Shown: piece by piece, positions 42,451 through 47,445 of the stretch
How positions within the stretch are numbered: the first letter of the stretch is position 1
Layout: each line of letters opens with the position of its first letter
DNA from: Microbacterium lacus
GTDB taxonomy: Bacteria > Actinomycetota > Actinomycetes > Actinomycetales > Microbacteriaceae
Assembly (NCBI RefSeq): GCF_002812805.1
Contig: NZ_NMUM01000009.1
Location: forward strand, 62,001-126,000
DNA length: 64,000 nucleotides
Direction: 5' to 3'
Notes under the pieces: model-generated
The model's database searches: none
The model's input: only the letters and a program-made list of their open reading frames with translations
Told to the model about the DNA's origin: nothing
Translations under genes and position numbers: made by a program

Positions 42451-42537
42451 CCATTCATTCTGTCCGATGACTCTGGGCGCTCGCCTTCCCGCGCCGCGCG
42501 GGTTGACGGATACTTCGGTTTTATGTTCGAATATAGG

Positions 42538-44703
42538 ATGCGCTGGCGCGGACAACAGCTCGGAGTTGCGGACGAATCCGCACTACCGGGGCTGGAACGA
42601 ATGGACGGGCTCGTCCGTTCGGTGACGACGCCTGAATTCGCCGGCATCACCTTTCACGAGGTGCTCGCGAAGTCGGCGCTCAATCATGTGCCCGGGGCGT
42701 CGTCGATGCCGTTCAACTGGACGATCAATCCGTACCGAGGATGCAGCCATGCGTGCTCCTATTGCCTCGACCCGGACACCCTGATCGTGCTGGCGGATGG
42801 TCGACAGCGCCGACTCGGTGATCTCCGCGTCGGCGATCACATCGTCGGAACCGAGCGCTCGGGAAACTACCGGCGCTACGTTGAGACAACTGTCCGCGCA
42901 AAGTGGTCAACGCATAAGCGCGCGTACCGCATCACCCTTGCCGACGGCACGCAGATCATCGCGAGCGGCGACCATCGGTTCCTCAGCGACCGGGGCTGGA
43001 AGCACGTCACGGGAACGATGTCGGGATCAGAGCAGCGACCCTTTCTGACGACGAACAACCGACTCCAGGGGTTCGGGCTCGGCGGTGCGATGCACCCCGA
43101 CCTACTCCTGGATGCAGATTTTCGCCGGGGGTACCTCGCCGGAATGATCCGTGGAGACGGAATGATCTTTCGCGGAACCTACGTCGACGCGAAACGTACG
43201 CGCGAAGTCAACCGTTTTCGTCTCGCTCTCGCAGATGCGGAGGCACTCGATCGGACTCGCGCGTTCCTCCTCGCGGAAGGCATCGAGACCCTGCTACGCC
43301 CATTCACACCCGCCACAACCACCCGCCGACAGATGACCGCGATTCACACGGCACGACGAGACGCGGTTGCACACGTCGAAGATCTCATCCGCGACCCCGT
43401 GGATCCGAGCAGCGGCTGGAGAGCCGGATTCCTGTCTGGCGTCTTCGATGCCGAGGGATCCTGTTCCCGAGGGGTGCTCCGCATCAGCAACAGCGATCCA
43501 AACATCATCCGCACAATCATGGAGTCTCTGGCGCACTACGCGCTTAGTGCGGTCGTCGAGCCCGCACGCGCGAATGGCGTTCGCTACGTTCGCCTTCTGG
43601 GAGGCCTGCCCGCACGGCAAAGATTCTTCCAGCTGACGCGCCCCGCCATAACGCGCAAACTGGCTATTCTCGGCACCGCGGTGAAGACCGCATCCGATCT
43701 GCGCGTGGTCGGTGTCGAGGGTCTCGGCTACGACATCGACATGGTGGACATCACAACAGGCACGGGTGACTTCATCGCCAACGGTGTTATCAGCCACAAC
43801 TGCTTTGCTCGCGGTACGCACGAGTACCTCGACCTCGACGCGGGCGCGGACTTCGATTCGCAGATCATCGTCAAGACCAACGTCGCTGACGTGTTGCGGC
43901 GCGAACTGCGTGCGGGTTCCTGGCAGCACGAGCACGTCGCCCTGGGCACCAACACCGACCCGTACCAGCGCGCCGAGGGACGGTATGCGCTCATGCCCTC
44001 GATCATCGAGGCTCTCGCCGAATCGGGCACCCCCCTGTCGATCCTGACGAAGGGCACGCTGATCCGACGCGATCTCGGCGTGCTCGCAGCAGCCCGCGAG
44101 CACGTGCCCGTCGATCTCGCGTTCTCGATCGCGGTGTTCGACGATGCCCTGCAGCACTCGATCGAGCCCGGAACACCCACGGCAACCGCTCGTCTCGAGG
44201 CCGTGCGCGCCGCCACAGTCGCGGGGTTCGGGGTAACGGTGTTCATGATGCCCGTCATGCCGCACTTGACCGACTCCATTCCCGCGCTCGACGACGCACT
44301 CGCGCGCATCAAGGAGGCCGGCGCGGTGCGCGTCGTCTACGGCGCGCTGCACCTGCGCCCGGGCGTGAAGCCCTGGTTCATGCAGTGGCTCGAGCGGGAG
44401 CATCCGGAACTCGTTTCGTCGTACCGCGGGCTGTATCCGGGCGCGACGTCCAACGCGCCGAAGGGCTATCGGCAGTGGCTAGCGAAACGCGTGCGACCCC
44501 TGATCCGGGCGCACAGGCTCGACGGGCGCGCCGAAGAGGAGCAGACGATGCGGGCGCGCGGTCCTGGCCCGGTGATCACCACGCGCTCCGCCGGCGCGTC
44601 CCTTGCGGGCGTGACAGCCACGGGCGGACCGGCATGGGCGCCTCGTCGCGACACCAAGCCCTCGGGTCCGCGCTTCGACGTGTCCCCGCCCACCCTGTTC
44701 TGA
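42538..44703 (+). CDS. Rv2578c-family radical SAM protein with intein
   Basis: 721-residue precursor from ATG 42538 (MRWRGQQLGV, the usual N-terminus; ATG 42523 is also in frame). The N-extein (75 residues) ends NPYRGCSHACSY. The intein (346 residues) runs from CLDPDTLIVLADG to FIANGVISHN. The C-extein begins CFARGTHEYLDLDAG. Joined, the exteins restore the radical SAM motif CSHACSYC, whose third Cys is the splice +1 residue. Further radical SAM features follow: GTNTDPYQRAEGRYALMPSIIEAL, LTKGTLIRRDLGVL and FMMPVMPHLTDS. The spliced protein would be 375 residues. The family is SplB-related but its substrate is not established. Without splicing the enzyme cannot bind its 4Fe-4S cluster. Confidence 0.93.
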   Translation: MRWRGQQLGVADESALPGLERMDGLVRSVTTPEFAGITFHEVLAKSALNHVPGASSMPFNWTINPYRGCSHACSYCLDPDTLIVLADGRQRRLGDLRVGDHIVGTERSGNYRRYVETTVRAKWSTHKRAYRITLADGTQIIASGDHRFLSDRGWKHVTGTMSGSEQRPFLTTNNRLQGFGLGGAMHPDLLLDADFRRGYLAGMIRGDGMIFRGTYVDAKRTREVNRFRLALADAEALDRTRAFLLAEGIETLLRPFTPATTTRRQMTAIHTARRDAVAHVEDLIRDPVDPSSGWRAGFLSGVFDAEGSCSRGVLRISNSDPNIIRTIMESLAHYALSAVVEPARANGVRYVRLLGGLPARQRFFQLTRPAITRKLAILGTAVKTASDLRVVGVEGLGYDIDMVDITTGTGDFIANGVISHNCFARGTHEYLDLDAGADFDSQIIVKTNVADVLRRELRAGSWQHEHVALGTNTDPYQRAEGRYALMPSIIEALAESGTPLSILTKGTLIRRDLGVLAAAREHVPVDLAFSIAVFDDALQHSIEPGTPTATARLEAVRAATVAGFGVTVFMMPVMPHLTDSIPALDDALARIKEAGAVRVVYGALHLRPGVKPWFMQWLEREHPELVSSYRGLYPGATSNAPKGYRQWLAKRVRPLIRAHRLDGRAEEEQTMRARGPGPVITTRSAGASLAGVTATGGPAWAPRRDTKPSGPRFDVSPPTLF
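42763..43800 (+). other. Intein with LAGLIDADG homing endonuclease domain
   Basis: 1038 bp, 346 codons. It starts at the Cys codon of CLDPDTLI (block A). Block B is GTQIIASGDHRFLSDRGW, and the end is GYDIDMVDITTGTGDFIANG followed by VISHN and the +1 Cys (blocks F and G, with the terminal His-Asn). Two LAGLIDADG-type helices lie between: RGYLAGMIRGDG and RAGFLSGVFDAEG, both keeping an acidic residue. The intein therefore looks fully functional and possibly still able to home. It reads in frame with both exteins. Confidence 0.95.
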
Positions 44704-44716
44704 CCCGTGAACGTCG

Positions 44717-44785
44717 GCGAAACACCCCCTGTGCGGCCAAACACCCCGGGAGACGGGGTGTTTGGCCGCAGAACAGGTGTTTCGC
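44717..44785. repeat. Nested double-stem palindrome, second copy
   Basis: The inner stem TGCGGCCAAACACCCCG (44732-44748) pairs perfectly over 17 bp with 44754-44770, loop GGAGA. The outer stem GCGAAACACC (44717-44726) pairs perfectly with 44776-44785. It shares AAACACCCC and the two-tier plan with 22811-22881. It lies between the convergent radical SAM and DEAD-box genes and probably terminates both. Confidence 0.85.
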
Positions 44786-44871: not shown

Positions 44872-47097
44872 TTACGCGGTCAGCTCGGCGGCGGTCAGGC
44901 CGCCCGCGAGCTCGTCGATCACGTCGTCGCCGGGCGCAGCATCCTGGAAGGGTGCGACGATCTCGGCGCGCTCGAGCATCTCGGTCATCTTGCGACGACG
45001 CTGGCGGGTGATCAGCGTGACCACACGACCCTGCTTGCCGGCGCGGCCGGTACGGCCCGAGCGGTGCAGGTACGTCTTGTACTCGTCGGGCGGGTCGGCC
45101 TGAACGATCAGGTCAATATCGTCGACGTGGATGCCACGGGCCGCGACATCCGTCGCCACAAGCACGTTGACCCGGCCGGACGTCAGGCGCTCGAGGTTGC
45201 GCGTGCGCTTCTGCTGGTTGAGATCACCGTGCAAGGCGACGGCGGGGATACCGGCGTCGGCGAACTGCTCGGCAAGCATCTCCGCGAACGCGCGGGTACG
45301 GGCGAAGACGAGGGTCTTGCCGTCGCGGTCGACCAGGCGGCTGAGGATCTCGGCCTTGTTGCGGTGGTCGATCACGAGCACGCGGTGCTCGATCGTGCTG
45401 GAGGCCTGGTCTTCACCGGCGACCTCGTGCACGGCCGGCTCGACGAGGAACTCGTCGACGAGCGCCGAGACCTCGCGGTCAAGCGTTGCCGAGAAGAGGA
45501 GCTTCTGCGATCCGTCCGACGTCTCGCGCAGGATCCGCTGGACGGGCTCGAGGAATCCGAGCTCGCACATGTGGTCAGCCTCGTCGATGATCGCCACCTG
45601 GACCTCGCTCAGGTCGAGACGACCCTGGTTGATGAGGTCTTCGATGCGACCGGGCGTGCCGATGATGATGTCGACGCCCTTCTTGAGCGCACCGACCTGA
45701 CGCGCCTGGGGCACGCCGCCGTAGATCTGGGTCGTGAACAGGCCCACGCTGCGGGCGATCGGCTGGATCGTGCGGTCGATCTGCAGGGCGAGCTCGCGCG
45801 TCGGGGCGAGGATGAGTGCCTTCGGCTTGCGGCCGAACTCACGACGCTGGCCGGCCTGGCCGCGCAGCACGTTCTCGACCATGGGAGCGCCGAAGGCGAT
45901 CGTCTTGCCGGAACCGGTGCGGCCACGTGCGAGCATGTCGCGTCCCGCGATGATCTCGGGGATGGTTGCGGCCTGGATGGCGAAGGGCGCCGCGGCGCCG
46001 AGGTCGGCGAGGGCACGGACGATGTTGTCGCCCAGGCCCAGGTCACCGAAGCTCACGCCGTCGACATCCGTCGCCTGAATGGCTTCGGCCTGCAGGCGCT
46101 CGTGCACGACGTCGACGTGCTGCTCGTGCGACGCGGTGCGCTCGGGTTTCTTCGACCAGTCGGAGCGACCGGCGGGTGCGCCACCGCGGTCGTCGCGGCG
46201 GGGACGGTCGCTGTTGTATTCGCGCTTCGGGCGGTCGTCGAACGAACGCTTTGGCCGATCGTCGAACGAACGAGCCGGGCGCTCACCGTATGTGCGGGCC
46301 GGACGGTCGTTGTTGTACTCACGACGCGCGGGACGCTCCGCACCATCACGCGACGGGCGGTTGTCGAAAGAACGCGCGGGGCGCTCATCGAATGAACGCG
46401 CGGGACGCTCGTCGCGACGCTCATCACGACCGCGCGCGGGACGCTCGTCGAACGAACGCTTGGGCCGGTCGTCGAACGAACGAGCCGGACGCTCGTCGAA
46501 CGAACGAGCCGGACGCTCGCCAGAGGTGCGAGCCGGACGATCGTTGTTGTACTCACGACGGGCCGGGCGCTCCGCACCATCACGGGCCGGGCGGTTGTCG
46601 AACGAACGCGCGGGGCGCTCACCATACGTGCGGGCCGGACGATCGTTGTTGTACTCACGACGGGCCGGACGCTCCGCACCATCACGCGACGGGCGGTTGT
46701 CGAACGAACGCGCGGGACGCTCGTCGAAGGAGCGCGCGGGGCGCTCATCGAAGGAGCGCGCGGGGCGCTCATCGCGGCGCTCATCCCGACCCCGGGCCGG
46801 ACGCTCGTCGAACGAACGTGCCGGACGATCGCCGTGGGCATGGGTACGGATGCCGCGGGCCTCTTCGCGGCCGGCGCGCTGCGCCGAGGTCCAACGGGCC
46901 TTGGGTGCACCGGACTCGTCGGTCGAGGCCCCGGCGCGGAACCCGCGGTGACCAGCGCTGCGGCTGCCCGGCTTCTGCGAACGAGCCTCGGTCGCCGTGC
47001 CCTGACGCTTGCGGTCCTGGTAGGGGGTCTTCTCACCGCGGCGCGGTTCGAAGTTCTTCGCGGGTCGGCCGCCGGCCGGCTTCTTGTTCTTGGGCAT
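44872..47097 (-). CDS. DEAD-box RNA helicase with long repetitive basic N-terminus
   Basis: 741 residues from ATG 47097 (AGAAGGAC upstream). Residues about 1-330 are basic and disordered; from about 85 to 320 they consist of repeats such as RPARSFDERPARSFDNRP and AERPARREYNNDRPART, an RGG-like RNA-binding tail placed at the N-terminus. The helicase core (about 345-720) has VSFGDLGLGDNIV (Q-motif region), GRTGSGKTIAFG (Walker A), LAPTRELALQ, VAIIDEADHMCELGF (DEAD), LLFSATL and HRSGRTGRAGKQG. It belongs to the DeaD/CsdA/RhlE group, which helps RNA unfolding and ribosome assembly, often in the cold. The long upstream region would suit cold-dependent control. Confidence 0.94.
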   Translation of the reverse strand: MPKNKKPAGGRPAKNFEPRRGEKTPYQDRKRQGTATEARSQKPGSRSAGHRGFRAGASTDESGAPKARWTSAQRAGREEARGIRTHAHGDRPARSFDERPARGRDERRDERPARSFDERPARSFDERPARSFDNRPSRDGAERPARREYNNDRPARTYGERPARSFDNRPARDGAERPARREYNNDRPARTSGERPARSFDERPARSFDDRPKRSFDERPARGRDERRDERPARSFDERPARSFDNRPSRDGAERPARREYNNDRPARTYGERPARSFDDRPKRSFDDRPKREYNSDRPRRDDRGGAPAGRSDWSKKPERTASHEQHVDVVHERLQAEAIQATDVDGVSFGDLGLGDNIVRALADLGAAAPFAIQAATIPEIIAGRDMLARGRTGSGKTIAFGAPMVENVLRGQAGQRREFGRKPKALILAPTRELALQIDRTIQPIARSVGLFTTQIYGGVPQARQVGALKKGVDIIIGTPGRIEDLINQGRLDLSEVQVAIIDEADHMCELGFLEPVQRILRETSDGSQKLLFSATLDREVSALVDEFLVEPAVHEVAGEDQASSTIEHRVLVIDHRNKAEILSRLVDRDGKTLVFARTRAFAEMLAEQFADAGIPAVALHGDLNQQKRTRNLERLTSGRVNVLVATDVAARGIHVDDIDLIVQADPPDEYKTYLHRSGRTGRAGKQGRVVTLITRQRRRKMTEMLERAEIVAPFQDAAPGDDVIDELAGGLTAAELTA
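46200..46830 (-). repeat. Imperfect tandem repeats encoding RPARSFDERP units
   Basis: Short units of about 24 bases (RPARSFDE, RPARSFDN, RPKRSFDD) are interspersed with a longer unit coding GAERPARREYNNDRPART, present three times. Several copies are nearly identical in DNA, so the region can expand or shrink by slippage. Confidence 0.9.
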
Positions 47098-47445
47098 AGT
47101 GGTGTCCTTCTGGGTTGTCTCATGTGAGAACAGCACTCCACTGAACGCACCGAAGTACGCCGCTCAGATCTGCGTCTGATCGCGGTAGGAGTTACCCGGA
47201 CTCTCGTCGGCCGGGGGCCATTCAACGTGATGGTCGCCGGGGCGGATTCGCCCCCACCATCGGCCCCTTGGACTCACAAACCCATCTACGCAAACGCGTA
47301 GTGTCCAGAGCCGACCGGCCAACACTACCGCACGGCGGTCACCCACGCTGAGAGAACGCCGGATTCTACGCGAGAAAGCACGCGGCCGCCGTTCAATAAC
47401 ATGAGCACGTTCGGCCGGGTGGCCGGTCGAAGGGGGGACGCATCC
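47098..47445. other. Intergenic region between DEAD-box helicase and aldose epimerase genes
   Basis: About 350 bases without a supported gene. It contains an imperfect hairpin (GATGGT...GGGGCG with CGCCCC...ACCATC, near 47231-47263) and a short palindrome CTACGC-AAAC-GCGTAG at 47286-47301. It is probably the long 5' leader of the helicase message plus divergent promoters. Confidence 0.45.

Follow-up and report, generated by a model that had tools for sequence, protein, structure and literature searches.

An Intein Directly Before the Third Cluster-Binding Cysteine of an Rv2578c-Family Radical SAM Protein in Microbacterium lacus

An intein lying inside the cysteine motif of a radical SAM enzyme raises the question of which cysteine completes this motif before splicing, and whether splicing could respond to the redox state or to the iron–sulfur cluster. 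This question was addressed for a stretch of 64,000 nucleotides of the Microbacterium lacus contig NZ_NMUM01000009.1 (positions 62,001 to 126,000), referred to below as the window. A first-pass annotation of the window had placed an intein within CxxxCxxC of a radical SAM gene and proposed that the enzyme forms no 4Fe–4S cluster until splicing.

Intein and Host Gene

The placement of the intein was confirmed and is correct to the base. Window 42763–43800 (+) translates as a single open frame of 346 aa (CLDPDTLIVLADGR...TGTGDFIANGVISHN), preceded by ...YRGCSHACSY and followed by CFARGTHEY.... The translation exactly reproduces the proposed division C-SHA-C-SY / intein / C-FARG, and the junction CSY / intein / CFARG puts the third cluster Cys in the position of the +1 nucleophile. 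The ORF at 42523–44703 (+) encodes 726 aa, the outer parts of which form an Rv2578c-family radical SAM protein and the middle part the intein (Table 1). Since the NF038136 profile alignment begins at residue 6, translation probably starts at the ATG at 42538 and not at 42523.

Table 1. Features of the radical SAM precursor gene (positions in the window).
Feature	Position	Strand	Basis
Rv2578c-family radical SAM precursor (likely start)	42538..44703	+	Frame, profile matches; ORF opens at 42523
N-extein, ending ...YRGC(-7)SHAC(-3)SY	42538..42762	+	Translation, row comparison
CxxxCxxC of the precursor, C-SHA-C-SY-C1, the final Cys being intein residue 1	42742..42765	+	Translation; same in 42 + 6 further rows
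Intein, 346 aa; C1, block B S68-x-x-H71, block F D329, H345, N346	42763..43800	+	Translation, profiles, alignment
LAGLIDADG homing endonuclease region within the intein, boundaries approximate	43078..43650	+	Profiles, alignment
Endonuclease block C, LAGMIRGDG with D132; block E, GFLSGVFDAEGS with E231	within 43078..43650	+	
C-extein, beginning C+1 FARGTHEY; remaining radical SAM domain	43801..44700	+	Translation, Pfam

The window protein matched NF038136, the NCBIfam model "intein-containing Rv2578c family radical SAM protein", with 773.4 bits (cut-off 700), residues 6–666 covering profile positions 1–573 of 574. Enzyme family, intein and site are all shared with the members of this model, and the window protein is one more member without essential difference. 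Judged by its sequence, the window intein is of a known kind already covered by an NCBIfam model, in agreement with the first-pass annotation, which supposed that inteins had already been noted in this protein family.

Among the other profiles, PF04055 (Radical_SAM) scored 51.2 bits (cut-off 29.5), which together with CxxxCxxC after predicted splicing assigns the protein to the radical SAM superfamily. TIGR01445 (intein_Nterm) scored 28 bits (cut-off 24.5) and PF14528 (LAGLIDADG_3) 28.6 bits (cut-off 22.5), Pfam giving only one stretch of the latter kind. Two intein models remained under their cut-offs for the window protein, namely PF14890 (Intein_splicing, 27.6 vs. 35.8 bits) and TIGR01443 (intein_Cterm, 13.2 vs. 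15.6 bits). In a PDB search, a profile built from 18 such inteins matched 1dq3, which is listed as an endonuclease and is presumably an intein endonuclease, and I-DmoI (E about 5e-8; the I-DmoI match spans 119–290), and also the gp41-1 intein (E 3.8e-6). Across the genome (3.49 Mb), the window protein was the sole match found to its enzyme family, and no second intein-N-terminal match was found at E ≤ 0.1 besides the window intein.

Two neighbouring elements were also observed. A perfect 15-base inverted repeat at 44733–44769 (gcggccaaacacccc / ggggtgtttggccgc), terminator-like by eye, lies directly 3′ of the radical SAM gene. At 44872–47136 (−), a DEAD-box helicase is encoded, the N-terminal part of which contains many near-copies of RPARSFDERPAR-like units.

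Splicing and Endonuclease Residues

The window intein has the residues of a class 1 intein (C1, H71, D329, H345 and N346, followed by C+1). For comparison, 42 inteins at the site were aligned: 38 longer than 250 aa ("full length", a set that includes L051, L054 and L056 of 288–312 aa each) and 4 mini-inteins. Profile searches supplied 37 rows (11 + 26), a DNA pattern that itself demands the cysteines supplied 4, and the window 1; window copies (L001, L120), the L039 copy L046, the incomplete L110 and a stray match in L084 were excluded. Cys1, the block-B His, the block-F Asp, the penultimate His and the terminal Asn were kept in 42/42 rows, as were C-7, C-3 and C+1. It should be noted that C-7, C-3, C1, C+1 and the Asn were contained in the extraction pattern, which was passed by all 37 intein rows from the profile searches, and that this pattern made no demand on either His or on the Asp. 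At the block-B Thr position, 41/42 rows have Ser (S68 in the window). No further conserved Cys was found in the aligned inteins, the next best column having Cys in 20/42 rows. Six further mini-inteins had the same junctions as the 42 rows.

The block C Asp was kept in 35 and the block E Glu in 34 of the 38 full-length inteins. Both catalytic acids (D132 and E231) are present in the two LAGLIDADG blocks of the window intein, as expected from the earlier description of its endonuclease motifs as intact. All 33 intein-free loci obtained by profile searches read CxxxCx[Y/F]CFAR at the junction; this motif was in the intein-free extraction pattern, and 0/33 fetched loci failed it. Hence both alignment checks suggested by the first-pass annotation, on the junction in intein-free homologues and on the residues needed for splicing in the window intein, were passed.

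The Ser at the block-B Thr position and the low PF14890 and TIGR01443 scores could point to a decaying intein that no longer splices and leaves the gene inactive in this strain. However, Ser is normal here, the other examined splicing residues are present and no stop interrupts the C-extein frame. Moreover, dN is well below dS: for the window and L039, the values are 0.202/0.944 for the extein and 0.242/1.361 for the splicing domain, the latter dS being near saturation. In nine pairs, dN was lower than dS in the splicing and endonuclease parts wherever dS was estimable, several dS values being near or beyond saturation and two endonuclease comparisons giving no estimate. On these grounds, a decayed intein was rejected and seems extremely improbable. 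As far as its residues tell, the window intein is ordinary and probably functional, a class 1 member of an already named family in an unusually telling place.

The Cysteine Motif Before and After Splicing

The precursor reads C-SHA-C-SY-C1 and the spliced product would read C-SHA-C-SY-C(+1), and this is true of every row read. The precursor keeps CxxxCxxC because intein residue 1 is itself a Cys in third place. For this reason, the proposal that no 4Fe–4S cluster forms until splicing is not established. In the proposed competition of splicing and cluster chemistry for one cysteine, the first contested residue would be Cys1 (with Cys-3), not Cys+1. According to the sequence, splicing would put Cys+1 in the place of Cys1, whose natural partner would be Cys-3, the second cluster cysteine. 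Overall, the interpretation given in the first-pass annotation is partly supported.

According to PMC9850924, minimal ferredoxin-like and radical-SAM-like peptide motifs take up redox-active clusters at 80–100%. It is therefore conceivable that the unspliced precursor carries some cluster on C-7/C-3/C1. An AlphaFold2 precursor model based on four rows had a mean pLDDT of 45.1 and a pTM of 0.39, too low for Cys–Cys distances.

Based on the intact residues, we propose the following course of events. A mobile class 1 intein of LAGLIDADG type would have homed into the invariant CxxxCxYC codons of an Rv2578c-family radical SAM gene. The site may be favoured by its obligatory Cys+1 within strongly conserved DNA, so that imprecise loss of the intein would kill the enzyme. 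After translation, Cys1 would attack the Tyr(-1) peptide bond, the N-extein would pass to Cys+1, and Asn346 would cyclise, whereby the exteins would be joined and the cluster-binding motif C-SHA-C-SY-CFARG restored. Placed three residues past Cys-3, Cys1 would mimic the third cluster cysteine; because it replaces this cysteine in the precursor, a Cys-3/Cys1 disulfide or a metal or cluster at C-7/C-3/C1 could delay splicing. Such a delay might simply follow from the position of the intein and need not be an evolved switch. We consider this explanation as a whole, a mobile class 1 intein homed at the third cluster cysteine and predicted to splice, to be highly probable.

Distribution and Mobility

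The patchy occurrence of the intein was evident at several levels. Of the 138 family genomes that gave a match, 12 carry the intein as judged by span (9 full, 3 mini); the other 126, four of them with broken or partial matches, were without an intein-sized span. A genome of the same genus (L043) is without the intein. In the phylum sample, 115/396 genomes matched at E ≤ 1e-60, and 35 of the 115 contained the two halves of the intein or a fragment bearing it, one of them (G565) on two contigs and counted from the match alone; since this sample was searched with the intein model, intein-free genes were possibly under-counted. On a 75-row extein tree, the intein-free family rows of which are the best-scoring ones and not a random draw, the full-length intein label requires 8 changes, at least 7 of them forced by well supported branches.

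Seven rows first counted as Rv2578c belong to the PA0069 family, assigned via L063 (466.5 bits, cut-off 360) and their shared clade. Between these and the other rows, inteins were 52.3% and exteins 34.4% identical (means, 217 pairs). In the window's family, by comparison, the inteins group in a single clade (100/99), and their mutual identity is lower than that of the exteins (60.5% vs. 70.3%, 36 pairs); recent homing from outside into the window's lineage was therefore not seen in these sequences. The GC3 of the intein was below that of the exteins in 40/42 rows, with a mean difference of −11.2 points (72.0 vs. 82.7 in the window), and the drop was absent in the other 2.

Endonuclease-free mini-inteins persist in 10 rows. 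Four species of the genus g163 (L192–L195) have common 151-aa mini-inteins with a similar linker, the pairwise dN being 0.10–0.29 and dS 0.67–0.90 (extein dS about 0.75–1.07), which suggests one old endonuclease loss and long retention. In L195, the mini-intein lies in a frame of 382 aa, shorter than those of its relatives, and the gene may be truncated. With mini-inteins retained across four species and dN there much lower than dS, the element can evidently persist in the absence of homing, a persistence that a purely parasitic reading would not call for. This retention fits selection to splice together with hard precise loss equally with a useful switch.

A phage or plasmid reservoir of the intein was also considered and rejected. 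Distant relatives of the window intein were found in 7 phage records, with full query coverage in one (27.6% identity). The protein in this one record (L169, KX853510.1, Virus Rctr197k) is annotated as "radical SAM protein-like" but is without CxxxCxxC and helicase-like by eye; its name may come from intein similarity. In IMG/VR, an intein start was present at 16/19 loci, with Cys at −3 in none. Among the plasmid records, one matched the window intein. In this record (L170, NZ_CP129127.1, Streptomyces plasmid), a stretch without a listed gene (1501–2505) encodes an intein 30.4% identical to the window's. Within the three-cysteine motif of a DUF5131 protein, it stands before the third Cys, and a nearby gene carries the annotation three-Cys-motif partner TcmP; the DUF5131 protein had no radical SAM score in Pfam.

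The Third-Cysteine Site in Other Radical SAM Enzymes

Genome contigs were scanned for CxxxCxYC leading into an intein start, a search confined to the third-Cys site and with some Rv2578c motifs deliberately shut out. It gave 47 stretches, 24 of which were read as radical SAM genes carrying an intein: 5 of Rv2578c type, 18 of a second family (AmmeMemoRadiSam) and 1 of a third (CXXX-repeat maturase). The remaining stretches were rejected as apparent chance matches or intein-free genes.

The AmmeMemoRadiSam identity was assigned by scoring L091 (TIGR04337, 248.2 bits, cut-off 220), the other rows sharing the GMLGC motif. Ten of the 18 loci reach the C-junction, each reading SN/CQNW, and intein-free relatives read, e.g., CNLGCLFCQNW. 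In the phylum sample, TIGR04337 was matched by 62/151 genomes; five of the 62 had an intein at the third Cys, one of which is a 185-aa mini-intein. The third family, a CXXX-repeat peptide maturase of Clostridium, is represented by one locus (TIGR04115, 362.8 bits, cut-off 350).

In addition, three archaeal loci with an intein before the third Cys, as in the window, had NF045703 (tetraether lipid synthase Tes, intein-containing) as their best model, although its cut-off of 1700 bits was reached by 0/200 genomes (best 1327). These Tes-like loci read CNFSCWY/CLPGDE...LSN/CFF, i.e., the intein stands before the third Cys, and the intein-free loci printed (3/3) read CDLSCFYCFF. The Tes-like enzyme is different from the window's, and its intein groups with the AmmeMemoRadiSam inteins, not with the window's. 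The third-Cys site is thus occupied across Rv2578c, PA0069, AmmeMemoRadiSam, CXXX-repeat maturase and Tes-like enzymes.

A profile comparison, rough in that some profiles have single or few rows, joined the Rv2578c, PA0069 and CXXX-maturase inteins (probability 99.5–100) and separately the AmmeMemoRadiSam and Tes inteins (98.8). Between the two groups, the probabilities with AmmeMemoRadiSam and Tes, respectively, were 0.3 and 6.6 for Rv2578c, 0.9 and 15.6 for PA0069, and 9.0 and 0.8 for the CXXX intein. These groups represent at least two distinguishable intein lineages with a common fold, and not two intein origins.

A CXXX-repeat radical SAM/SPASM maturase with two inteins was observed in a Clostridium sp. 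MAG (L109, NZ_JAENWM010000003.1). The first precedes the third CxxxCxxC cysteine. The second stands directly before a presumed SPASM-region cysteine (W/CFKEGT...HN/CGGNG) and falls in the other group, with a probability of 97 when compared with the AmmeMemoRadiSam inteins.

The third Cys might be regarded as a convergent landing site used for a chemical reason by at least 2 intein groups in at least 5 enzyme families, with Cys1 serving as third ligand, a disulfide or cluster on C-7/C-3/C1, and the intein freed only on reduction or cluster loss. In five genomes, 10/13 intein-start matches had loci, of which 4 were in radical SAM genes with Cys at −3, by construction, as the genomes were drawn from the third-Cys scan, and 6 were others without it. 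We consider such a chemically selected landing site quite unlikely; if true, it would link Fe–S status with protein splicing across the superfamily.

Possible Redox Control and Comparison with Known Systems

MoaA is a radical SAM enzyme, and the MoaA intein of Pyrococcus abyssi is reported to have a native Cys-3/Cys1 disulfide; the regulatory idea therefore has a close published precedent. According to PMC3922620 and PMC10663303, through which the work of Callahan et al. 2011 is cited here, this disulfide blocks the first splicing step and is argued in reviews to protect an oxygen-labile enzyme, and the CxxC pair Cys-3/Cys1 was also used in an engineered redox trap.

In the window protein, too, a Cys-3/Cys1 disulfide or a cluster or metal on C-7/C-3/C1 might act as an evolved switch, holding splicing until the cell is reducing, so that an oxygen-labile enzyme appears when it is workable. 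Consistent with this are the Cys-3/Cys1 pair, which all rows read possess, the reported control of the MoaA intein, the acquisition of clusters by short motif peptides and the mini-inteins retained by four species of one genus. However, the conservation of Cys-3 is no sign of regulation, because it is imposed by the host motif, and the aligned inteins offer no further conserved Cys. The enzyme also manages without the intein, since 126 of the 138 matching family genomes have no intein-sized span. Furthermore, a 2014 review (PMC4031507) saw no physiological support at the time for splicing being conditional. An evolved switch thus appears unlikely, and the patchiness, the movement across enzymes and the lower GC3 fit a mobile element best. 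With the intein taken as such an element, regulation of splicing in the window protein is possible.

The useful parts of this analysis are the comparison of the third-Cys site across enzymes and the correction that CxxxCxxC of the precursor uses Cys1, making Cys-3/Cys1 the pair to examine; the regulatory hypothesis is plausible and now specific enough to test. In the openly licensed literature, no paper was found on the pairing of an intein with Rv2578c, nor any whose title or abstract treats this insertion site, and the available text of an article on mycobacteriophage inteins (PMC5050341) does not mention radical SAM.

Among the systems with redox-sensitive splicing, DnaBi1 of Mycobacterium smegmatis resembles the proposed trap in that oxidants reversibly inhibit splicing via a cysteine, but differs in being a class 3 intein of a helicase with a wholly intein-internal disulfide, according to PMC6195587. 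The P. abyssi MoaA intein is like that of the window in having a radical SAM host and a Cys at −3 plus Cys1, as far as the sources cited above go, and the window has the residues of a MoaA-type redox trap (CSY/C1). It is unlike the window in enzyme and host, and its Cys-3 would presumably be the second Cys of CxxxCxxC. If the MoaA case concerns the same cysteine, the single archaeal example would grow into a class rich in natural variants, among them mini-inteins of about 150–160 aa that have no endonuclease and would be handy for oxidation and cluster-loading work.
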